Of a stretch of DNA of 35,450 nt, positions 3,985 to 16,436 are shown in pieces. The translations under genes were made by a program, and so were the position numbers. The notes below the pieces were generated by a model, which had not been told where the DNA came from, searched no databases, and saw only the letters and a program-made list of their open reading frames with translations. The DNA lies in assembly GCA_016650175.1 (NCBI GenBank), contig JAENWG010000015.1, positions 1 through 35,450 on the forward strand, written 5' to 3'. The stretch's first letter is position 1; every line of letters starts with the position of its first letter. This DNA is from Peptostreptococcaceae bacterium. GTDB taxonomy: Bacteria > Bacillota > Clostridia > Peptostreptococcales > Anaerovoracaceae.

Positions 3985-5028
3985 TTAAACTTCCATTGCA
4001 AGCGCATAAGAACTTCTTACTGCATCTACAACTTTACCTGGCTTAAATGAATCTCCTAAGTTATATATTTCTGGAGCAACTCTTTCACTCAAAGCATTGT
4101 AATATAAACTGTTTTCTGAACGATATCCTAGAGCAATCAATACAAAGTCTGTATCAATTTCTTTTTCAACCGCATCTGTACCCGTTGATTTTGCTAATGG
4201 GTTATCTGTGTTTTTAGGTAATAATGGTGTCCAACACATATATGGATCTGAAAGATGTTTGCTTGTTTTTTGATCCGTTATTACTTTCCCGTTTTCAAAC
4301 TTCAAAACTTTACATCCATTATGAAGATTAACTTTATCATTCTTTCTCATATAGTTTAACAAATGACCACGATTTGCTGTACACGCACCGACCATAAAGT
4401 CATCAAGCATTTCAATTACATCAACCTGTTTCTTGTCTTCAAATGCTAATTTATAAGCTGTCTCTGTTCCAACAACACCACCACCGATAATTGCAATTTT
4501 TTCTTTTCCATCTAAAATCGATGAATCTAATAATGCATCCGTTGCCATCGCATGTGGAATGCCATCTAATCCTGGGAATGGAGGTATAATGTCGTTTGTT
4601 CCAGTTGCTATTACCACTACATCATATCTTGCTTTTAAATCTTCAATTTCAACTTTTTTATTGAATACAGCTTTAAATGTATACTCTTTTTCAGCTTTTG
4701 CTACTTGAACTCTTAAGTAATTTACATAGTTTTTTATGTCAAATTTAATCATTGGTTTTCCACCAGAAATTAATTTTCCACCGATTTCACCAGTTGCTTC
4801 AAATAGGGTAACATCGTGACCTTTTTTAGCTGATTCAAGTGCATATACACATCCTGCAGGCCCTGCTCCAACTACTGCTACTTTCTTTGGTTTTTCAACT
4901 TTTACTGGTTTAACATATTTTTCTTCAAATCCACAACGCGCATTAACAGCACATTGAATATGTCCACCTTCTACAAATTCGTTTACACAGCCCTCTTGGC
5001 ATCCGATACACGGTCTGATGTCTTCCAC
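3985..5028 (-). CDS. FeS/FAD/NAD(P)-binding half of an enoate-reductase-type flavoprotein
   Basis: A 347-residue frame matching the C-terminal half of 2,4-dienoyl-CoA reductase/enoate reductase/BaiCD-type enzymes. It begins right at the [4Fe-4S] ligand motif CX2CX3CX11C (Cys7, 10, 14, 26), then an FAD-binding GAGPAG loop near residue 55, an NAD(P)-binding GGGVVG loop, and the closing NLGD FAD motif. It would carry electrons from NAD(P)H through FAD and the cluster to FMN in the partner half. The only usable start is GTG at 5026-5028 with no Shine-Dalgarno. It is in the same frame as the upstream gene, separated by one TGA and four codons. The two frames therefore look like one gene cut by a stop, unless translation re-initiates. 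Confidence 0.85.
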   Translation of the reverse strand: MEDIRPCIGCQEGCVNEFVEGGHIQCAVNARCGFEEKYVKPVKVEKPKKVAVVGAGPAGCVYALESAKKGHDVTLFEATGEIGGKLISGGKPMIKFDIKNYVNYLRVQVAKAEKEYTFKAVFNKKVEIEDLKARYDVVVIATGTNDIIPPFPGLDGIPHAMATDALLDSSILDGKEKIAIIGGGVVGTETAYKLAFEDKKQVDVIEMLDDFMVGACTANRGHLLNYMRKNDKVNLHNGCKVLKFENGKVITDQKTSKHLSDPYMCWTPLLPKNTDNPLAKSTGTDAVEKEIDTDFVLIALGYRSENSLYYNALSERVAPEIYNLGDSFKPGKVVDAVRSSYALAMEV

Positions 5029-5040
5029 CTTATTATTAAA

Positions 5041-6249
5041 TCATTTTTCTGGCCAATAAGGGTCTGCTAATAATTGTCTTCCAAGCATAACCATGTCTGC
5101 CATATTATCTTTTAGAACTTCTTCCGCTAAATCAGGAAATCCAAGTTTACCAACTGCTACGATTACAACATCGCCACCTGTATTTGTTTTAATATTATTG
5201 CTTCTAAAATAATCTACTGCAGCTTGTGATACTGATTTGAAACATCCTGCTGGCATTCCTGCTGGTGGATGAGGTAACCACCAGTTGTCGTAACAACCTA
5301 GATCAACATCGAAACAATCAACGCCTGCTTTTACTAAAGCTTCCATAAATTTAAGTGTTTCATTTACAGTTCTACCTTTAGTATATTTTTTAAGTGTATC
5401 CATATTTTCAATGTTTTCATATGTTTCATTTAATGCAAGAGATAAATCTATACGATACATAATTGGATAATGTGGTCCAACATTCTCTCTAATTGCTTTT
5501 ACTAAATCTACTCCGAAACGATAAGGATCTGAATATTTACCTAATTTGCGACGATTAAATGCAGGATTTGTCATTTGTTCTAATAAGTATCCTTCATGAC
5601 CATGAAGATATACTCCATCAATACCTTGACATTGCGCATCAAGTGCGGCTTGTGCTCCATTTTTAATAATTTTATTTAGCTTGCCATCAGAAAGTCTTAT
5701 ACACGGAATAGCTGGAATATAAAAGTTTTTATTGAACGATGCAGAAACCGGAAACTTCAACTCGTTTGGTAAACAAAGAGGTGCTCCTACACGACCGAGT
5801 CCTGGTGTTAACTGAATAAATATTTTAGAATCATAAGCATGTACGCTTGAAGCTAAATCGCGCCATCCAACCAAATTAGTTCTTGTTTTATCAATTCTTG
5901 GGAAGTAAGACAACCCTCCTGGTTCCGAAACTGTCGGATCAATTCCATGTGAAATTGGAACAAGCCCAGTTGTAAGAAGACCACAACCACCTTTTGCACG
6001 TTCTGTAAAATATTGGATCATTTTTTCATTTGGTCGCCCACTTTCTTCGCACATTTGAAGATTTCCCATTGGCGCCATTACGATTCTGTTTTTTATCTTT
6101 GTTCTGTTTATATTGATTGGAGAAAACATCGTCTTAAAAGGATACAATTTCCCCGTCATGCCTTTTGCATCTTCTGGATGTTCTAGAAACCAATCACCAT
6201 AGCTGTCTACTAGTTCTTGAACTAGTGGGTCTTTTTTAAGTTCACTCAT
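5041..6249 (-). CDS. Old-yellow-enzyme (FMN) half of an enoate-reductase-type flavoprotein
   Basis: A 402-residue TIM-barrel NADH:flavin oxidoreductase. Visible family features are NRIVMAPMG (55-62), QLTPGLGR (146-153) and the active-site block HGHEGYLLEQ (His216, His218, residues 216-225), then a C-terminal LGRQLLADPYWPEK that in fused relatives runs straight into the Fe-S motif. Such enzymes reduce activated C=C bonds of enoates or enoyl-CoAs. It has an N-terminal extension of about 45 residues. Its ATG directly abuts the stop of the ACS-like gene, with a GAGGG site. It ends in TGA exactly one codon wide at the position where fused homologues have a linker residue, so it is either truncated by mutation or read through. 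Confidence 0.85.
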   Translation of the reverse strand: MSELKKDPLVQELVDSYGDWFLEHPEDAKGMTGKLYPFKTMFSPININRTKIKNRIVMAPMGNLQMCEESGRPNEKMIQYFTERAKGGCGLLTTGLVPISHGIDPTVSEPGGLSYFPRIDKTRTNLVGWRDLASSVHAYDSKIFIQLTPGLGRVGAPLCLPNELKFPVSASFNKNFYIPAIPCIRLSDGKLNKIIKNGAQAALDAQCQGIDGVYLHGHEGYLLEQMTNPAFNRRKLGKYSDPYRFGVDLVKAIRENVGPHYPIMYRIDLSLALNETYENIENMDTLKKYTKGRTVNETLKFMEALVKAGVDCFDVDLGCYDNWWLPHPPAGMPAGCFKSVSQAAVDYFRSNNIKTNTGGDVVIVAVGKLGFPDLAEEVLKDNMADMVMLGRQLLADPYWPEK

Positions 6250-7044
6250 TTATTTTCCCTCTTTTTCTTTTTTAAACCATTTCGGTTTACTTCCTTCTTG
6301 GCTTTGCTCCGTTTGTTTTTCCAGTTCTTTTTTCTCTTTTACTGATTTAAAATGAAGTTCTCTTAATACCTCAACATCATCACATATCGTTTGTAATGGG
6401 CAAATACTACAGTCTGTAATAATATTCTTCATAACATGTTCAAATGCATTTGTAATACTGTCCACTTCACGACTTTGTTTAACTAACTCCGGAATCATAG
6501 GATGATCTCCTACAATAAAAATCATCCATACATGATTTACACCTGGGATTTTTTTATAGCGGTTAATAAACAAATTCCCAATGATAGAAAAATCTAATCC
6601 GTTTTTTATTGCTTTTTTACTAACTCGAATATTTTCTTTATTTTCTACACTTGAAGTCAAAATCATATAACCTTCTGGAATAACTTTAAAACGTTCAAAT
6701 TCTAACCGTTTAATACGTGTATAAGCTATATTTGGATCATCTACATCATCTATGTCAATAAAGGTGATTCTAGAAAAATTTGTATCACTATTTATTTCTG
6801 ATATATCTTTCCCAATTAAGGTGATCCGATCTTCCGTTACAAATATTTCTTTACTTGTTGGGCAATTGTACACCGTGCACGGGGCAAGTCGATCTCCTAA
6901 CTCAAATGCAACTTCTTTACCCATTAAAAACTCATTGTTTTCTAAGCACTTCCACTCCACATTTGAATTCACAGCTAATTCTTTCATATTATACGGTTCA
7001 AGAATTTTGAATGTTTCATTAATCACCTTGTCGTATACTTTCAA
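6250..7044 (-). CDS. Acetyl-CoA synthase (ACS/CdhC)-derived domain protein, lacking a full A-cluster
   Basis: A 264-residue soluble protein. Residues 46-195 align by eye, almost without gaps, with the middle domain of acetyl-CoA synthase: FELGDRLAP, then TEDRITLIGKDISEI (like DGKIEVIGPDIDQI of Moorella AcsB), then RVSKKAIKNGLDFSIIGNLF (like RVSKDAVAKGFRFKNYGEIL) and MIFIVGD (like VTIFTD). At the point where ACS has its first A-cluster cysteines it has CSICPLQTIC (Cys212, 215, 221; CX2CX5C) and then stops with a charged Lys/Glu tail. The later GLCG and CGC nickel-ligand regions of ACS are absent, so it cannot be a normal acetyl-CoA synthase; the three cysteines may hold an Fe-S or other metal site. 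It starts at TTG (7042-7044) behind a strong GGAGG and is translated with the flavoprotein gene. Confidence 0.7.
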   Translation of the reverse strand: MKVYDKVINETFKILEPYNMKELAVNSNVEWKCLENNEFLMGKEVAFELGDRLAPCTVYNCPTSKEIFVTEDRITLIGKDISEINSDTNFSRITFIDIDDVDDPNIAYTRIKRLEFERFKVIPEGYMILTSSVENKENIRVSKKAIKNGLDFSIIGNLFINRYKKIPGVNHVWMIFIVGDHPMIPELVKQSREVDSITNAFEHVMKNIITDCSICPLQTICDDVEVLRELHFKSVKEKKELEKQTEQSQEGSKPKWFKKEKEGK

Positions 7045-7061
7045 ATTAACCTCCTCCAGGA

Positions 7062-7217
7062 CTAAATACTTTCTTCTATATCCCTATCATCATGGTATTT
7101 TATTAACTTATCATAAGTTTTTTCTACTAATTTTCCATCTGCATTTGTAATATATGCTACAAATAACAGAATAAATAAAACTACTAAAACAATTAGAATA
7201 ATTATTAATGCTTTCAT
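7062..7217 (-). CDS. 51-residue single-span membrane protein
   Basis: A short frame with ATG at 7215-7217, a strong GGAGGTG Shine-Dalgarno and TAG at 7062-7064, fitted tightly between the activase (17 bp away) and the ACS-like gene (17 bp away). Residues 2-22 are almost purely Ile, Leu and Val (MKALIIILIVLVVLFILLFV), then a Tyr/Asp/Lys/Glu-rich cytosolic or outer tail of about 28 residues ending DRDIEESI. The hydrophobic part is one membrane helix. No Cys or His residues for metal binding apart from one His in the tail. The family is unrecognised. The close packing and good ribosome site argue that it is real and may anchor a partner to the membrane. Confidence 0.75.
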   Translation of the reverse strand: MKALIIILIVLVVLFILLFVAYITNADGKLVEKTYDKLIKYHDDRDIEESI

Positions 7218-7234
7218 TCTTACACCTCCGTATG

Positions 7235-8038
7235 TTATTCTCCGTAAACGTCCATGCCTTTTTGTCTTGCAAATTCAGCTGCTCCTAAAGCACCCATTAA
7301 TTGAGGATCAATATCTAGCTCAACAACTTTAATACGAAGTACTTTTTCGAGAGCTTCTTTTAATCCCATATTTTTTGCACATCCACCGGTAAGTGCAATA
7401 GAATCCTTTGCTCCAGCTTTCTTAGCCATTACAAAACAACGTTTTGCTACGGCCTGTTGTATGCCTGCTGCGATTTCGTCACGAGGTTTTCCTTCACCTA
7501 CAAGTGTAATTACTTCTGATTCAGCGAAAACGGTGCATTGTGCTGAAATTGGAATTACATTCTTAGCGTCTAATGAAAGTTGTGAAAATTCATCTAATGT
7601 ACATTCAAATGCTCTTGCCATAGCTTCAAAGAAACGACCTGTACCAGCTGCACATTTATCATTCATCGCAAAGGTTTGAACAGTCCCATCTTCTGCAACA
7701 GCAATACCTTTTACATCTTGTCCACCAATATCAATAATTGCTTTTACATCTGGGTTAGTAATATGAACGCCCATTGCATGACAAGAAATTTCAGAAATGT
7801 TTTCTTCTGCTTGTGGCACTTTGTTTCTTCCGTAACCTGTACCAACTAAATAAGTAAGATCTTCAATTTTTTCCAATCCTTCTACTTTTGATACGACTTC
7901 TCCCATTGCAATTTCTGCACTTTCCGCACTATTCATTTTGCTTCTTACTGTTACACTTGAAGCTACTTTTCTGTTTTCATCTAAGATTACTGCTTTTGTG
8001 TATGTTGAGCCAACATCACATCCACCAAAATATTTCAT
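7235..8038 (-). CDS. 2-hydroxyacyl-CoA dehydratase/benzoyl-CoA reductase-type activase (BadF/BcrA/HgdC family)
   Basis: A 267-residue ASKHA-fold ATPase of the size and layout of the homodimeric archerases HgdC, HadI and FldI. Visible are the phosphate loop CDVGSTYTKA (7-16), GTGYGRN (66-72), DIGGQDVK (103-110), and the two cysteines that hold the bridging [4Fe-4S] cluster in NDKCAAGTGRF (Cys129) and SAQCTVF (Cys168), plus ALTGGCAKN near the end. It hydrolyses ATP to push one low-potential electron into the dehydratase-type partner. It lies just downstream of both candidate partner subunits, with an AGGAGG site. A single activase gene suggests a homodimer. Confidence 0.93.
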   Translation of the reverse strand: MKYFGGCDVGSTYTKAVILDENRKVASSVTVRSKMNSAESAEIAMGEVVSKVEGLEKIEDLTYLVGTGYGRNKVPQAEENISEISCHAMGVHITNPDVKAIIDIGGQDVKGIAVAEDGTVQTFAMNDKCAAGTGRFFEAMARAFECTLDEFSQLSLDAKNVIPISAQCTVFAESEVITLVGEGKPRDEIAAGIQQAVAKRCFVMAKKAGAKDSIALTGGCAKNMGLKEALEKVLRIKVVELDIDPQLMGALGAAEFARQKGMDVYGE

Positions 8039-8063
8039 TTTTTTTCCTCCTGTTTTGCACTTT

Positions 8064-9632
8064 CTACCAAGTTAAGTTGTCATCATAATCTATTAACGTA
8101 GGATCTAAAGGCTTTTCTCTAAATACGTTAATCATATAGTTATTCATCGCATCACGCATTGCTTTTCTTGAAACGGTTCTTGGGTCCATTAAATCATGAG
8201 GAACCCAGATTAGGTGAATGCCACGTTCTCTAGCTTGATCTTCATATAATCCATGTAAACCACCTACATTCTTGCAAGATACGTGATCATACATAATTAC
8301 AATATTCGTATTGAATTTTTCACACATTTTCCAACATTCATCCAATGAGTTTGCATACCCACCATTTGTATGTGAACGCATCATCATACGTTCATAACTT
8401 TTAGCCATATCCACCATTGCTTGTTTTTCATCTCCAATATGGAACATGTGATAAGAAAGCATACATTCCATATCAATTAAACATTTTACACCCCAACAAT
8501 GTTGAGCCCAATAGGTAAAATTCGTATAGTAATGTGCTGGACAAGCCCAAACAATTGCACGATATTTTGGTTTGTTTGCATCATTTTTCTTATCTTCCTC
8601 ATATCCTTTTTTCATCATCTTATCAATTTTTAAATCTGTTTTATACATATATGGATCCATGCATCCTGCACTTTGGAACTCATATTCTCTAGGAAGTGAT
8701 AATGCTCCTCCACATACTTGTGGATAATCAGTACAATTCACATCCCATTTATTGATTGCACATTGTGCTTCTTCGTTATATACTTTGCAGCCTTCCCAGA
8801 ATGCATCCCAATCCCATTTTACATTGTAATTTTCTTCAATAAACGAAATGCATTTTTCTAAATTCTTAACTGCATATTCATTTACTTCGGGTTCATTAAA
8901 ACGTTGTGGAGGAGTAACTTGGAATACTGGAATATCTTTAAAATATCTTCCCATAAATGTTGTTTGCCCAATAGAACCATCACATGGCATAGAGCTTGTA
9001 ATATATGTATTACCTACAATTGGATAATCATCTACAACCGCCGCCCCAGCTTCCGCTGCCGGAAGAGGACATACATCTGATGCTAATCCAAAATGTTCAA
9101 TCGCATCAATATAATACATATTCGCATTCTGATCAACTTCACCCGGCATTCCGATTACAAACATCGCTATATCAAACCATTCTACAGTTGGAAATCCTGC
9201 CATAATAAAGGAAGGCGTCATTTCATCAAACATTACTGTGTTTTTTCTTAATTTTGCTGCTTTTTTATTGTTCGGACGTAAATGTTCGTCTTTTTCAATT
9301 AATTTTGCAATATTTACAACTGAATTGTGTACTAGAGAGAAAAAAGCTTCATGTGTGTACCTTAATTCTTTTCCTCTAAGACCTATAGTATGTCTATCCA
9401 CCATGTTTGATGCGGTAATAAACGAAACCATCCAACGGTATCTCATTAACGCTTTAATCATTAAAATCGGATGAACTCCCAACTTAGCTGCCATAAATCC
9501 GTACAGTTTTAACCAACGTCCAAAATCATACGCCGTGTCTTTAAAACCTTTCCATTCACGATGAGTGAACGCTCTATGGTTTGCATCATAAAAGTTCCCC
9601 ATTCCTTTTCCAGTTTTAGGGTTATATGCCAT
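8064..9632 (-). CDS. 2-hydroxyacyl-CoA dehydratase-family subunit, long form (522 aa)
   Basis: Belongs to the HgdA/HgdB/BcrB-C/FldB-C superfamily. Three cysteines sit in the places used for the [4Fe-4S] cluster: VCPLP (Cys188), SSMPCDGS (Cys217) and DHVSCKN (Cys453). At 522 residues it is longer than the usual 380-480, with an N-terminal extension of about 130 residues that contains a basic, aromatic-rich stretch and no obvious motif. A GGGGGA site precedes the ATG, which directly follows the stop of the companion subunit gene (TAA-ATG), so the pair is translationally linked and probably a heterodimer. The reaction could be dehydration of a 2-hydroxyacyl-CoA or reduction of another substrate; the substrate cannot be told from sequence. 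Confidence 0.85.
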   Translation of the reverse strand: MAYNPKTGKGMGNFYDANHRAFTHREWKGFKDTAYDFGRWLKLYGFMAAKLGVHPILMIKALMRYRWMVSFITASNMVDRHTIGLRGKELRYTHEAFFSLVHNSVVNIAKLIEKDEHLRPNNKKAAKLRKNTVMFDEMTPSFIMAGFPTVEWFDIAMFVIGMPGEVDQNANMYYIDAIEHFGLASDVCPLPAAEAGAAVVDDYPIVGNTYITSSMPCDGSIGQTTFMGRYFKDIPVFQVTPPQRFNEPEVNEYAVKNLEKCISFIEENYNVKWDWDAFWEGCKVYNEEAQCAINKWDVNCTDYPQVCGGALSLPREYEFQSAGCMDPYMYKTDLKIDKMMKKGYEEDKKNDANKPKYRAIVWACPAHYYTNFTYWAQHCWGVKCLIDMECMLSYHMFHIGDEKQAMVDMAKSYERMMMRSHTNGGYANSLDECWKMCEKFNTNIVIMYDHVSCKNVGGLHGLYEDQARERGIHLIWVPHDLMDPRTVSRKAMRDAMNNYMINVFREKPLDPTLIDYDDNLTW

Positions 9633-10859
9633 TTATTCGTCCCCCTTTTTCGTTTTTTCTTTTTCTTCTTTTCTGGCTTTTATCATTTTGATTTCTAAAC
9701 TTTCCACAAACGCTTGTACTCTTGTTCGAAGCTGTCCACTTGTTCCACTTCTATAAGGTCTATCAATTGATAAAGCAGGAATACCATATTCATTTTGTAG
9801 CACATGACTTGCTAGTGTTCTTTCAAATGACCAATAAGTACAGAATTTCATTTGTTCATAGATAATTCCATCTGCATGAAAATGTTCTGTCAATTCTTTT
9901 GCTCTGTCATAACGATACTGCACTTTATGATCGGAACATTGTCTAGGACATTCAGTATCTTTTAAATATCTGCGACAAACTTGCGTAAGTGCATCTTCAT
10001 CATCTGTTAAAGTTATTTCAGATCTACCAGGGAATGAACCATAACAGAAACGATCCGCTACAACTAATGCGCCATTATCTTCAATTAATTCGATCAATTC
10101 AGGATCATCAATTTCAGAACCTACAATCGTAACTCTTGCTCTGTAGTGATTTTTAGAATCTGGTTCTCTTGTTTTTATTTCTTCCAATGTTTCTTCTAGA
10201 TAAGGAATAACATCTACCTTAGGACAAATATATGTTACTAAACATATTTTGTGAAATTCCGAGCCTGTAATAACAGGTTTCATTTCTGTTCTAAATTCAC
10301 CTATTTCAGTAATCAATCGGCAAATTTTATTGTGTTCTTCTACTGATTTTCGAATTTCTGCATCCGAAATATCAACACCATATTTTTCCTTGAGCGGTTT
10401 TAAAAAATTTCTAGATACTTGTTCGATTAGGTGTGTTACAGAATCTTCATCATCTGAACAAGGAATATCTAGATTTGTCCAAAAGAAATTTTCTTTTGTC
10501 GGATCATTTGTTTCTAATAATTCCATGTTTTCCATACAACGATTCATTGCTTCACAGCAGTCAACTCCTGCCATTGCATCTAGGAAATGATAATTTCCTT
10601 CGATAGCTCTTTCTAGCAATGCTCTACTATATTCACAAGAGCTACTTGCCATATAATATGTCGCAATATCCATTGAGCCCATGTTAGGAGCTCTCAGTCT
10701 TACTGAAAAGCAATCGCCCAAGTTTAATAAAACTTCAGGCATATGAAAGCAAGTATAGCCCAATGCTATTTTGCCATCATCTTTTGCTTTACGTACCAAT
10801 TCGTTATATGCATTTTCTAGTAAACTCTCGAAATAAATCATGTGTTTCAGATCTTTCAT
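9633..10859 (-). CDS. 2-hydroxyacyl-CoA dehydratase-family subunit, short form (408 aa)
   Basis: A 408-residue member of the HgdB/FldC/BcrC superfamily. The three expected cluster cysteines are visible as GYTCFHMPEVLL (Cys37), SSSCEYSR (Cys75) and EQMKFCTYW (Cys340). The motif around Cys37 matches the G-x-x-C-x-x-x-P-E-E/V-L pattern of the family. The protein is otherwise rich in cysteine (about 15), including CC at 101-102. The C-terminus is a Lys/Glu tail. The ATG overlaps the TGA of the ATPase gene (ATGA), a sign of coupled translation. With the 522-residue neighbour it would form the catalytic heterodimer served by the activase. No CoA-transferase gene is nearby, unlike the Fld and Had operons. 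Confidence 0.87.
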   Translation of the reverse strand: MKDLKHMIYFESLLENAYNELVRKAKDDGKIALGYTCFHMPEVLLNLGDCFSVRLRAPNMGSMDIATYYMASSSCEYSRALLERAIEGNYHFLDAMAGVDCCEAMNRCMENMELLETNDPTKENFFWTNLDIPCSDDEDSVTHLIEQVSRNFLKPLKEKYGVDISDAEIRKSVEEHNKICRLITEIGEFRTEMKPVITGSEFHKICLVTYICPKVDVIPYLEETLEEIKTREPDSKNHYRARVTIVGSEIDDPELIELIEDNGALVVADRFCYGSFPGRSEITLTDDEDALTQVCRRYLKDTECPRQCSDHKVQYRYDRAKELTEHFHADGIIYEQMKFCTYWSFERTLASHVLQNEYGIPALSIDRPYRSGTSGQLRTRVQAFVESLEIKMIKARKEEKEKTKKGDE

Positions 10860-11638
10860 TCCGGTTTTCCTCCATTTAATACTCCAAATTTTTTCAGTAC
10901 TTCCTTAATCTTCACTACAGAAATTGTATCATCTGGTAATTCCATGAAATTTTTAGCAGCAACATCATAAGTAATAATATTCTTATCTGTTGGTATAAGA
11001 CCCAAAAGTTCAACTTTCCCTGTATCAAGTTGTTCTACTAAAGACATATCTTCAATTCTATTGATTACAACACCAATTCTTTCATAATCAACCATTTCTT
11101 TTGCTACTTCATTGATTGTCTTGATTACCTCAAGACCTTTTCTACTTGCGTCAGTAACTAACAACAGATGACTTACCTTTTGCATAACACGACGATTAAT
11201 CTGTTCAATGCCTGCTTCTCCGTCGATTACAACAAAATCAAACTGGCTACTTACCATTTCAATTACGTTTTTCAAATAGGAATTGATTCTACAATAACAT
11301 CCTTCAGATTCCGGTCTTCCTATTGCTAGAAACGCAAAATTATCGGTTTCTACAATCGCTTCAAAGATTCGGTATCTTGATTCACTCACTAACTCCATTG
11401 CATTTTTTGTATCTCCTTCTTCAACAGAATTAATAATTTCAGTTCTAATATCATCTAGCGTAATTTCAGGTTTTACTTCCAATGCTGTTCCTAAACCAAT
11501 TGCAGGATCTGCATCAATTGCTAAAATCTTCTTATCTGGAAATTCTTTTGCCAATATTTTGACAATTGTTGCCGAAATAGAAGTTTTTCCAACGCCTCCC
11601 TTACCGGTAAGTGCAATAATTACTGGTTCTTTTTCCAC
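10856..11638 (-). CDS. CooC/AcsF-like P-loop ATPase (nickel-site maturation type)
   Basis: A 260-residue MinD/SIMIBI-class ATPase. It has the deviant Walker A GKGGVGKTS (12-20), the IDADPAIGLG block (41-50), and a VVIDGEAGIEQ Walker B. A CYC motif at Cys114-Cys116 within GRPESEGCYC is in the position of the CXC metal-binding pair of CooC, which loads nickel into CO dehydrogenase; AcsF does the same for acetyl-CoA synthase. Start GTG with a strong AAGGAGG. It lies in the same operon as an ACS-derived protein, which is the simplest candidate client; the alternative is maturation of the dehydratase-type clusters. No hook for assigning the metal is visible in sequence. Confidence 0.8.
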   Translation of the reverse strand: MEKEPVIIALTGKGGVGKTSISATIVKILAKEFPDKKILAIDADPAIGLGTALEVKPEITLDDIRTEIINSVEEGDTKNAMELVSESRYRIFEAIVETDNFAFLAIGRPESEGCYCRINSYLKNVIEMVSSQFDFVVIDGEAGIEQINRRVMQKVSHLLLVTDASRKGLEVIKTINEVAKEMVDYERIGVVINRIEDMSLVEQLDTGKVELLGLIPTDKNIITYDVAAKNFMELPDDTISVVKIKEVLKKFGVLNGGKPE

Positions 11639-12918: not shown

Positions 12919-14292
12919 CTATCCTAAAGGTTTGATCATATTTTCAAGCTTTACCCATATATCATAGTTTTCACTGTTAAAATATTCCAACTGTACTCCT
13001 GCTTCTTTTAAAGATATGTTTTCATTAAAAGCTTTCTTAGCTACAATTGCAGACTTTTCATAGCCTATAAATGGGTTAAGTGCCGTTACTATCATGAGTG
13101 ATCTATTATTGTTTTCATTTATTTTTTCCATATTAGGTGTTATCCCCATTAAGCAATTTTTATCAAACGAATGTATAGCCTCTGCCAATAATCTCACTGA
13201 TTCTAAGAAGTCATTTATTATCAATGGCATAAACACATTTAACTGAAAATTTCCTTGTGATGCCGCTATTCCAATTGATGTATCATTACCCATAACTTTT
13301 ACCGATACCATCGTAACAGCTTCGCACTGAGTAGGATTTACTTTGCCCGGCATTATTGAGCTTCCGGGTTCATTTTCTGGTATGTTTATTTCACCAATTC
13401 CGCACCTAGGGCCACTAGCTAGCCATCTAACATCATTAGCTATCTTCATCATATCCGCTGCTAGGGCTTTTAGTGCACCATGCGTAAATACTAAAGCGTC
13501 TTTTGATGTTAAGCTATGAAACTTGTTTTCTGCCGTTACAAATATCTCTCCAGTTATCTCGCTTATTTCATGTGCTACCAATTTACCGAAGTCCTTATGA
13601 GCATTAAGACCAGTACCAACCGCCGTACCTCCAAGTGCTAATTCGCTTAGGCTTTCCAAAGTGCTTTCTATCATTTTTTTATCATGAATTATCATTGATT
13701 CCCAACCGCTTATCTCTTGCCCAAGAGTTAACGGCGTAGCATCTTGAAGATGCGTTCTTCCTATTTTAATTACATCTTTATTTTCCTCTTCTAAACGACT
13801 TAATGTTTTAATCATTCCGTCGCAAGCAGGAAACAATTTATTTTTAATTTCAATTATAGCCGAAATATGCATTGCTGTAGGGAAAGTATCATTTGAACTT
13901 TGTGACTTATTTACATGATCATTTGGATGCAATATTTTTTCTTCTGCTATTTCATTTCCTCTGTTAGCAATCACTTCATTTACATTCATGTTACTTTGTG
14001 TACCGCTACCTGTTTGATAGACTACAAGAGGAAAATGTTTATTTAGTTTTCCGTCGATTATTTCATCGCATACATCACAAATCAAATCAGCTCGATTTTC
14101 TCCAAGCTGTCCTAGTCTCGCATTAGTAATCGCTGCTGCTTTTTTCAAAATACCAAAGGCCTTTATGACTTCAATCGGCATTCTCTTCCCGATTCTAAAG
14201 TTTTGAAAACTTCTTTGTGTTTGAGCACCCCAGTATACATCTCTAGGAACCTTTATTTCACCCATAGTATCTTTTTCAACTCTGTATTCCAC
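12919..14292 (-). CDS. fumC: Class II fumarate hydratase
   Basis: A 457-residue member of the fumarase/aspartase superfamily. It has the family's three conserved regions: VYQTGSGTQSNMNVNEV (about 90-107), GRTHLQDATPLTLGQE (about 178-193) and the signature GSSIMPGKVNPTQCE (about 310-325). It interconverts fumarate and L-malate without Fe-S clusters. Wording of the first and second region (GTQSNMN, THLQDATP) fits fumarase better than aspartase. It begins 9 bp after the malic enzyme gene with a GGAGG site, so the pair would link pyruvate, malate and fumarate. Confidence 0.92.
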   Translation of the reverse strand: MEYRVEKDTMGEIKVPRDVYWGAQTQRSFQNFRIGKRMPIEVIKAFGILKKAAAITNARLGQLGENRADLICDVCDEIIDGKLNKHFPLVVYQTGSGTQSNMNVNEVIANRGNEIAEEKILHPNDHVNKSQSSNDTFPTAMHISAIIEIKNKLFPACDGMIKTLSRLEEENKDVIKIGRTHLQDATPLTLGQEISGWESMIIHDKKMIESTLESLSELALGGTAVGTGLNAHKDFGKLVAHEISEITGEIFVTAENKFHSLTSKDALVFTHGALKALAADMMKIANDVRWLASGPRCGIGEINIPENEPGSSIMPGKVNPTQCEAVTMVSVKVMGNDTSIGIAASQGNFQLNVFMPLIINDFLESVRLLAEAIHSFDKNCLMGITPNMEKINENNNRSLMIVTALNPFIGYEKSAIVAKKAFNENISLKEAGVQLEYFNSENYDIWVKLENMIKPLG

Positions 14293-14301
14293 GATAACCT
14301 C

Positions 14302-15474
14302 CTACTTTCTAATAAGATCCAACTCAATAGCTTTATCTGCTACAGCTTTAGCTACAACTTCTACAACCTTTTCATTGAAAACATCCGGTAATATATATAT
14401 ATCGCTTAGTTCATCATCTGTTATCACGTAAGCCAGCGCTTCCGCTGCAGCGACTTTCATAGAATCGGTAACTCTAGTTGCTTTTACCGATAATAGCCCT
14501 TTAAATATACCTGGAAACGCCAAAACATTATTTACTTGATTAGGATAATCAGACCTTCCTGTTCCTACAATACAAGCACCCGCTTTTTTTGCAATATCTG
14601 GCATTATTTCGGGAATAGGATTAGCCATAGAAAATACAATAGGGTCTTTAGCCATCGATTTAATCATCTCTTCATTTACTAAATTAGGTTTGGAAACTCC
14701 TACAAATACATCGGCATTTTTCATTACTTCTGCGAGATTTCCTTTTCTACTATCCTTATTTGTTATCTTTGCCACTTTTTCTTGTTCGCTATTGTTAAAC
14801 TCTGAACCTTCATAAATAGCTCCATTAATATCACATACTATTACATCGCCAAATCCCATTTTTACAAATAATTTAGCTATAGAAAGTCCTGCAGCTCCTC
14901 CGCCGTTTATTACTATGTTAAGAGTTCCTTTTTTTCTTCCTGTATATCTTATTGCATTTAACACTCCAGCAGATGTAATAATTGCAGTTCCATGCTGATC
15001 ATCATGAAATACTGGTACATCACACTCTTCAATTAATCTTCTTTCGATTTCAAAACATCTAGGCGCACTAATATCCTCAAGATTTATTCCTCCAAAGCTC
15101 TTAGAAATAAGCTTGACTGTGTTAATTATCTCCTCCGTGTCCTTTGAGTCTATACATATAGGAATGGCATTGATTCCTGCGAATCTTTTAAAAAGAGCGC
15201 ACTTTCCTTCCATGACAGGCATACTTGCACTTGGCCCTATATCTCCTAATCCAAGTACTGCAGTCCCATCGGTAATAACCGCAACTAAATTGCCTTTACC
15301 CGTATATTCATATGCGAGCATTTCATCCATTTCAATTTCGAGACACGGTTCAGCAACTCCAGGTGTATATGCAATTGCTAAATCTTCCATAGTTTCAATT
15401 TCTGCTTTTGAAACCACTTCAAGTTTACCTCTCCATTCTAAGTGTTTCTTTAAGGCTTTTGTTTTGCTAGGCAT
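14302..15474 (-). CDS. NAD(P)-dependent malic enzyme (short bacterial type)
   Basis: A 390-residue malic enzyme: oxidative decarboxylation of malate to pyruvate, or the reverse. Visible are AYTPGVAEPCLEI (about 34-46), LGLGDIGPSASMPVMEGK (about 74-91), the metal-ligand region FHDDQHGTA (about 155-163) and the nucleotide loop NGGGAAGLSIAKL. It lacks the C-terminal phosphotransacetylase-like domain of the long MaeB proteins. The gene starts 25 bp after the raiA-type RNA, with a GAAAGGGG site, and is followed by fumC. Cofactor choice cannot be told with confidence. Confidence 0.92.
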   Translation of the reverse strand: MPSKTKALKKHLEWRGKLEVVSKAEIETMEDLAIAYTPGVAEPCLEIEMDEMLAYEYTGKGNLVAVITDGTAVLGLGDIGPSASMPVMEGKCALFKRFAGINAIPICIDSKDTEEIINTVKLISKSFGGINLEDISAPRCFEIERRLIEECDVPVFHDDQHGTAIITSAGVLNAIRYTGRKKGTLNIVINGGGAAGLSIAKLFVKMGFGDVIVCDINGAIYEGSEFNNSEQEKVAKITNKDSRKGNLAEVMKNADVFVGVSKPNLVNEEMIKSMAKDPIVFSMANPIPEIMPDIAKKAGACIVGTGRSDYPNQVNNVLAFPGIFKGLLSVKATRVTDSMKVAAAEALAYVITDDELSDIYILPDVFNEKVVEVVAKAVADKAIELDLIRK

Positions 15475-15498
15475 TAATTACCCCTTTCTAAAATAGAA

Positions 15499-15678
15499 CA
15501 TATAGTGGCTGCTCATCTGACCTGGTCTTTGACCCCACACTCGCCTTTACCCGGATTTTCCGGAGGACTTACTTCTAAGCTACGCCATGATCACTGCCGC
15601 TTTGCGACAGCTTACGTGGATCCTTTTGCCCGCAACTGGCTTGGACTTTCAACCACAGACATGAGCAGTCACTATATG
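15499..15678 (-). ncRNA. raiA: raiA-type structured non-coding RNA
   Basis: This 180-base stretch is clearly more GC-rich than its surroundings and has no convincing coding frame. On the minus strand its two ends, CATATAGTGACTGCTCAT (15661-15678) and ATGAGCAGCCACTATATG (15499-15516), form an 18-bp terminal helix with one A-C mismatch. Inside are several A-looped hairpins: CTGTCGC-AAA-GCGGCAG, CCGGA-AAA-TCCGG and GGTC-AAA-GACC. The size, closing helix, hairpins and position right after comFC match the raiA RNA motif of Firmicutes, a large conserved RNA linked to sporulation and aggregation in Clostridium. Here the next gene is malic enzyme, not raiA/hpf. Family naming is from memory of the motif. 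Confidence 0.75.
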
Positions 15679-15686
15679 CTCCCTGA

Positions 15687-16436
15687 TTAATGTATTATTA
15701 AATCTCCTCCTGCTACAAAGGATAAAAAGTATATCTTATTAACTCCTGCATTTTTAAGTATTTTGCTTATTGCATCAGCAGTAGCACCTGTTGTATAAAT
15801 ATCATCTATTACCAATACATTTTTACCTTTGATATCGCTTTTATCATACTTATTAATATTAAAAGCATTAATAAGATTTAGCTTTCTTTCTTCCGAATTT
15901 AGTTTCTTTGAAACATCTGTTTGCTTTGTCCTTATTAAATATTTAGAATTAAGAGTTGTTTTTTCGAGCCTTGTAAAATATCTCGCTATAAGCTCAGCTT
16001 GATTAAAACCTCTTTTTTTGAGTCTTTTACTGTGTATTGGCACCGGAATTACTATATCATATTTGATTTCTTCTATCAACATTCTATCATACATAATTTC
16101 TGCTATAATTTTTGACAAGTAAGTTTTCTTTTTATATTTTAAATTGAATATGACTTTTTTTTCATAAACACCGTATTGAGCACAAGTAAAGCCTCTGTCA
16201 AAATAATGTTTATTTTCCTGACAGTTATAGCATAGTTCTTTAGTGTTATTTTCACTTAACAATTTACCGCACTTACTGCATGTTCTCTCATTTGCCCACC
16301 TGAAATGTTCCATACAATCATTACATAAGGCATACGGCCTAGATTCATCAATAATATTACCGCAACAAATACAATAAATGCTATGAGGAAAAATCAATTC
16401 TGTTAACTTTTCCCATAATCTTTTAAGTCTCATCAC
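15687..16436 (-). CDS. comFC: ComFC-family phosphoribosyltransferase-like protein
   Basis: A 249-residue protein with two N-terminal zinc-finger-like cysteine sets (CICCG...CNDC near residues 20-40 and CSKCG...CYNC near 53-73) and a C-terminal phosphoribosyltransferase domain with the PRPP loop VLVIDDIYTTGATADA (about 207-222). Members work in DNA uptake or DNA processing in competent bacteria, but are also widespread in non-competent ones. It lies between recD2 (6 bp) and the raiA-type RNA (8 bp), in the arrangement commonly seen for that RNA. Confidence 0.9.
   Translation of the reverse strand: MMRLKRLWEKLTELIFPHSIYCICCGNIIDESRPYALCNDCMEHFRWANERTCSKCGKLLSENNTKELCYNCQENKHYFDRGFTCAQYGVYEKKVIFNLKYKKKTYLSKIIAEIMYDRMLIEEIKYDIVIPVPIHSKRLKKRGFNQAELIARYFTRLEKTTLNSKYLIRTKQTDVSKKLNSEERKLNLINAFNINKYDKSDIKGKNVLVIDDIYTTGATADAISKILKNAGVNKIYFLSFVAGGDLIIH

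Follow-up and report, generated by a model that had tools for sequence, protein, structure and literature searches.

A raiA-family RNA with a lengthened closing helix between comFC and a malic enzyme gene in a Peptostreptococcaceae bacterium

In the 35,450-nt stretch of Peptostreptococcaceae DNA analysed here (hereafter the window), a GC-rich segment between comFC and a malic enzyme gene was read in the initial annotation as a raiA-type RNA that is followed by malic enzyme rather than by raiA/hpf. This locus raises the question of whether the segment is a true member of the raiA family and, if so, whether it serves the genes behind it or a task of its own. The first part is answered by a covariance-model search. 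The segment matches the Rfam raiA model (RF03072) over its full length (1-209) with 141.6 bits (E 3.2e-35), about 40 bits above the gathering score of 101.3 bits, which bears out the family assignment. The conserved core nucleotides are present in the covariance-model alignment, and P6 is a short hairpin, so that the RNA belongs to variant 1 and not to variant 2 with its P6-P8 domain; variant 1 makes up 32% of the known raiA sequences according to the available part of the cryo-EM paper (PMC11751092). The pk-1 pairing between the P3 loop and the pk-loop was recognized by eye as a 7-nt complement (AGUUGCG/CGUAGCU). Positions 15499-15680 fold at -65.9 kcal/mol (z -4.8), an energy reached by 0 of 200 shuffled sequences, and a 261-nt stretch including the flanks folds less strongly (z -3.25; 1/200 shuffles as low). 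No frame in the ORF list, which starts at 80 aa, spans the RNA, and the RNA is present in a single copy in its own genome (1.63 Mb, 78% complete). That the match arose by chance, or marks a degenerate remnant devoid of a functional RNA, is hardly credible in view of its score, of the presence of the family in 48 of the 61 genomes of the first set (own included), and of the congeneric RNA, which shows only 4 differences in 162 nt, one of them converting a P1 A-C mismatch to G-C. The segment is a genuine raiA-family structured RNA at its usual site behind comFC.

The order of genes on the minus strand is recD2, comFC, raiA RNA, malic enzyme, fumC and DUF1294 (Table 1). Profile HMMs recognized RecD2, a zinc ribbon and a ComF-like PRTase in the comFC product (under NCBIfam's own comF cut-off), the N and NAD domains of malic enzyme, and class II fumarase in the fumC product (716.5 bits against a cut-off of 664.75). 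The gap of 8 nt after comFC was found as first described, and the ORF and HMM data place comFC directly upstream, in agreement with the known raiA context. The HMM domains likewise uphold the earlier identification of the downstream gene as malic enzyme; its adjacency stands, with 24 nt measured to its start rather than 25. No raiA/hpf gene lies directly downstream, where the malic enzyme is found instead, and a profile search found no hpf in the own genome, which is 78% complete. Farther along the window (3985-11638), the ORF translations inspected by eye reveal what we take to be a cluster resembling 2-hydroxyacyl-CoA dehydratase with its activator, together with enoate-reductase-like genes. 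A literature search by title and abstract returned no paper on an arrangement of raiA RNA with malic enzyme, a result that does not establish its absence from print.

Table 1. Positions of the features of the raiA RNA locus in the window
Feature	Position	Strand	Basis or remark
raiA RNA, variant 1	15508..15669	-	Rfam model 1-209; 2 nt in place of 43 model positions
Short P6 hairpin CCGGA-AAA-UCCGG	15551..15563	-	sequence, covariance-model alignment
P1 5' strand	15661..15682	-	folds, host-family covariation; beyond Rfam model from 15670 outward
P1 3' strand	15495..15516	-	folds, host-family covariation
U-rich tract UUCUAUUUU at P1 end, candidate termination point	15490..15498	-	sequence
Likely malic enzyme ribosome-binding site AAAGGGG	15481..15487	-	sequence; outside P1
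Weak -10-like TACATT over comFC stop codon, 7 nt before helix start	15689..15694	-	shuffle p 0.42
Promoter-like TTAAAA-18-TATACT inside comFC	15728..15757	-	promoter scan
comFC	15687..16436	-	ORF list and HMM; stop 15687-15689
Malic enzyme	14302..15474	-	ORF list and HMM; ATG 15474-15472
Class II fumarase fumC	12919..14292	-	ORF list and HMM

Within the host family, the raiA RNA was found in 176 of 197 genomes (own included; 173 above the cut-off) and in 104 of the 109 better ones, defined by a completeness of 90% or more and a contamination of no more than 5%. Among 32 RNA-bearing representatives, 24 have comFC on the same strand no more than 135 nt upstream; the gene behind the RNA is hpf, on the same strand, in 24 and malic enzyme in 3 (G000, G001 and G033), and the remaining five either show no hpf in the fetched flank (three) or reach the end of the contig (two). 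When all 197 genomes are considered, malic enzyme with fumarase follows the RNA in at least four (G000 and G001 of genus g1, G033 and G132 of g33) and fumarase alone in at least six (G100 and G154 of g95, G115 of g110, and G147, G183 and G084 of g79). Other genes can occupy this position: the ATG of cdaA (diadenylate cyclase) is found 32-33 nt past the end of the RNA model in genus g65 (G070 and G140; loci L053 and L054), the serine dehydratase beta chain gene sdaAB 46 nt behind the RNA in G149 and, by eye, a flavoprotein oxidoreductase gene 29 nt behind it in G107. The gene behind the raiA RNA changes between genera while the RNA stays. The malic neighbour is unusual and not anomalous, since the published synteny, as quoted in the available part of PMC11706538 (comFC upstream in 74%), has only 66% of the RNAs followed by raiA.

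A wide association between malic enzyme and the RNA was rejected, the RNA being present at 0 of the best 80 of at least 594 malic-enzyme loci, a set from which the window itself and its closest records may be missing. Twelve of these loci were screened by cmscan; a sequence pattern with a recovery of 67 of 68 control loci was applied to the full 80, and its sole match, L116, was not confirmed by cmscan. Concerning fumarase, the eight RNA-linked genomes of a first FumC tree form one group (100/100). After the addition of G000 and G001, in a tree that leaves out five divergent FumC rows, the link label needs two changes, and one change suffices in 32% of the bootstrap trees. A ComFC+RecD2 tree covering 8 of the 10 linked genomes, in which four ComFC-only rows were kept (one of them, G031, only 37% filled), also gives two label changes, with a single one in 31%. 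A single origin of the fumarase link would be compatible with both trees, neither of them deciding the matter. As a separate observation, loci L177 and L180-L186 from other families display, by eye, a GTGAGGGG- or GCGAGGGG-type site after the RNA, and seemingly one gene kind, not hpf, starts behind it (M.F.DK.L.C...), with a T-run before the ATG in most.

One possible explanation is that the RNA is a cis element of the malic-fumarase operon, which would respond to a signal by regulating read-through or translation of the genes behind it, in the manner of a riboswitch or an attenuator. The malic start is merely 24 nt away with no promoter-like site found between, Rfam labels RF03072 as cis-reg/riboswitch, the congener is identical to the window in the 16 nt past the model and in the distance to the malic start, and malic enzyme or fumarase stands behind the RNA in at least 10 genomes from 5 genera. 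In the MFE structure, the malic start codon and the GGG of the ribosome-binding site also form a weak hairpin of 5 bp; this hairpin, however, is not seen in the centroid, and P1 takes no part in it, the predicted fold keeping the ribosome-binding site clear of P1. The presence of hpf behind the same RNA in 24/32 representatives, the result of a scan in which no terminator-like hairpin was detected between 14200 and 16500, and the trans action published for C. difficile (available part of PMC11706538) all speak against such control, which is in our view rather improbable. The idea, put forward in the initial annotation, that the RNA might act on the malate-fumarate transcript fares poorly for comparable reasons: the downstream gene varies by genus while the RNA stays, and the malic/fumarase link is found in few genera. 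A malate/fumarate riboswitch in particular is disfavoured by the lack of a conserved neighbour (malic-fumarase pair in 3/32 representatives).

The closing helix P1 provides another line of evidence. The 18 bp attributed to it earlier are recovered once G15679-U15498 is counted, the ends 15499/15678 forming the C-G pair just within the outermost of the 18 pairs. Positions 15679-15670 pair with 15507-15498 and, after an A-C mismatch (15669/15508), 15668-15661 pair with 15516-15509; the fold of the longer stretch carries P1 to 15682/15495, with 20 pairs in the MFE and 21 in the centroid. The outer 12 positions were compared in 30 of the 32 RNA-bearing host-family genomes, two with too little flank being left out and G000 and G001 belonging to one genus. 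In this sample 322 of 360 cells are paired, against 177 with shuffled partners, and every position shows at least four standard pair types; the corresponding figures for 16 genomes from other families of the order are 81/192 and 71. An extension of at least 8 outer bp was found in 26/30 host-family genomes, versus 0/16 in these other families and 0/10 among further full-length raiA matches in the phylum. By an ungapped rule, 6 of the 10 fumarase- or malic-linked genomes (those of g79, g95 and g110) have fewer than 8 outer bp. Three long-form host-family RNAs, from a comparison that includes 20 loci picked mostly because hpf seemed elsewhere, also carry the extension, which indicates that it tracks lineage and not the P6 variant. 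P1 of the host family runs at least 12 covarying bp past the Rfam model, a feature that is possibly new: the term "P1 stem" is absent from the available part of PMC11706538, the one paper checked for a helix extension. A 113-nt miniature raiA-like RNA was also noticed in family f48 of the same phylum (L184:3089-3201, L185:3165-3277, L186:3318-3430 (-)); it accounts for three of the 14 genomes with a match in a set of 149. Its score of 49-57 bits is below the gathering score, and it retains P1 and the P3 region but has lost the P6 domain and most of P4/P5.

In the window, P1 is followed by UUCUAUUUU, by the likely ribosome-binding site of the malic enzyme and by the ATG; the first four bases of the tract are paired in the longest fold, and the tract is interrupted. 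A U-tract stands at the helix end in 16/30 host-family genomes (control rate 0.19; p 3e-5), a clear one being missing in the other 14/30; among the 16 genomes from elsewhere in the order it stands there in 2, against a control rate of 0.51. When the 110 nt downstream were searched for a terminator hairpin separate from P1, 3/30 host-family genomes (0.8 in shuffles) and 10/16 from the other families (0.6 in shuffles; p 3e-4) showed one. Base composition is not the same in the families compared, T-rich windows occurring in the controls at 0.19 vs 0.51, and this could favour simple terminators elsewhere. In the host family P1 probably doubles as the terminator stem, and expression of malic enzyme and fumarase would rely on read-through past the raiA RNA.

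The start of the transcript is less sharply marked. The initial annotation envisaged a promoter of the RNA's own inside comFC, which is possible; the candidates (Table 1) are however no better than chance, the scan giving 9 hits in total against 9.3 in shuffles. The counterpart of the -10-like site in the congener reads TAAAAT (shuffle p 0.19), and no promoter-like site on the minus strand reached the scan threshold in 15728-15152. In a sigma-70-type search, the best -10 box lies between 14 and 2 nt ahead of the helix in 16/16 genomes of other families versus 26/51 host-family loci, among which are the 20 picked mostly because hpf seemed elsewhere. An RNase could instead cut the RNA from a long comFC-RNA-malic-fumarase transcript, the long P1 serving as an element of processing or protection. 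This is consistent with the very tight packing on both sides of the RNA, with promoter candidates at chance level and with a long, nearly perfect P1, but is opposed by the enrichment of U-tracts at the helix end, by the promoter-like sequences with which the RNA begins in all 16 genomes of other families and by the start site mapped in C. difficile (available part of PMC11706538); we consider it unlikely.

The host family also offers natural experiments on the role of the raiA RNA, with sporulation markers missing and hpf displaced or undetectable. SpoIVA was matched in 59/197 genomes (42/109 better ones) and SpoIIIAE in 61/197 (43/109). The RNA is present in 41/43 better genomes with either marker and in 63/66 without (Fisher p 1; counted by hand from the match listings, either SpoIVA or SpoIIIAE being accepted). 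Neither marker was matched in G000 or G001. A Spo0A C-terminal domain was observed in these two genomes within a frame of 136-137 aa (G000:C4:4961-5239, locus L173; G001:C93:22950-23231). As for hpf (PF02482), it was detected in 173/197 genomes, and the RNA is kept without detectable hpf in the g79 genomes G084, G147 and G183 (L152, L150 and L149), which are 91-99% complete. The persistence of the RNA without sporulation markers and with hpf displaced or undetectable speaks against either being its main task.

The window RNA is best fitted by a housekeeping trans-acting RNA. More precisely, we think it rather probable that it is a trans-acting RNA of the raiA/ModT type with a lengthened P1 at which most transcripts terminate, malic enzyme and fumarase being expressed by read-through. 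The RNA would be transcribed from the end of comFC or earlier and fold into the compact raiA core closed by the lengthened P1. This helix would close from the inside out while its 3' strand is being transcribed and stop on the U-rich tract, ending most transcripts and shielding both ends of the RNA, and some polymerases would read through to express malic enzyme and fumarase. The RNA itself would act away from the locus, its downstream genes being passengers that differ between genera. Family membership, context, the covarying P1 extension, U-tract enrichment and retention of the RNA without sporulation markers and, in three genomes, without detectable hpf were all observed here and support this scheme; that this organism uses termination, read-through and trans action is what we infer from them. 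Against the scheme stand the 14/30 host-family genomes with no clear U-tract and the chance-level promoter candidates. The insert of 160 nt, moreover, far exceeds an ordinary terminator loop, and so long a helix might just as well be cut by RNase III or act as a clamp that protects the ends. In view of the hairpin over the malic start and of the six P1 extensions that are short, we weigh this scheme slightly lower and cis control slightly higher.

A bolder version, which we hold to be doubtful, would make the raiA RNA of the host family self-terminating: the P1 extension is the terminator stem, the finished fold releases the RNA, and a core that is misfolded, or held by a ligand or a protein, lets the polymerase through. 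The trans-acting RNA would in that case also be a folding-controlled gate for the gene behind it, here for malate-fumarate metabolism.

Among known systems, the trans-acting RNA favoured here is closest to the raiA motif RNA / ModT (RF03072), for which the available parts of PMC11706538 and PMC11751092 give no settled molecular function and report, where measured in clostridia, a place among the most abundant RNAs. The window RNA shares with it the full-length match, the conserved core, the short P6 of variant 1 and comFC upstream; it differs by malic enzyme and fumarase downstream in place of raiA/hpf and, relative to the Rfam model, by an outer P1 longer by 10-13 bp, a host-family trait. For C. 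difficile ModT, trans action, a SigA promoter, isoforms and abundance are published (available part of PMC11706538). The proposed end of ModT(L) is a separate intrinsic 3' terminator, whereas none was found for the window RNA, whose P1 ends on a U-rich tract; the same part of that paper suggests terminator loss in orthologues without a predicted one, and in the host family the terminator may instead be fused into P1. The likeness extends to both flanks: a comFC-like gene lies upstream of ModT(S)/ModT(L) (available part of PMC11477304), and the downstream gene is there, as here, not raiA, being a PTS antiterminator (available part of PMC11706538).
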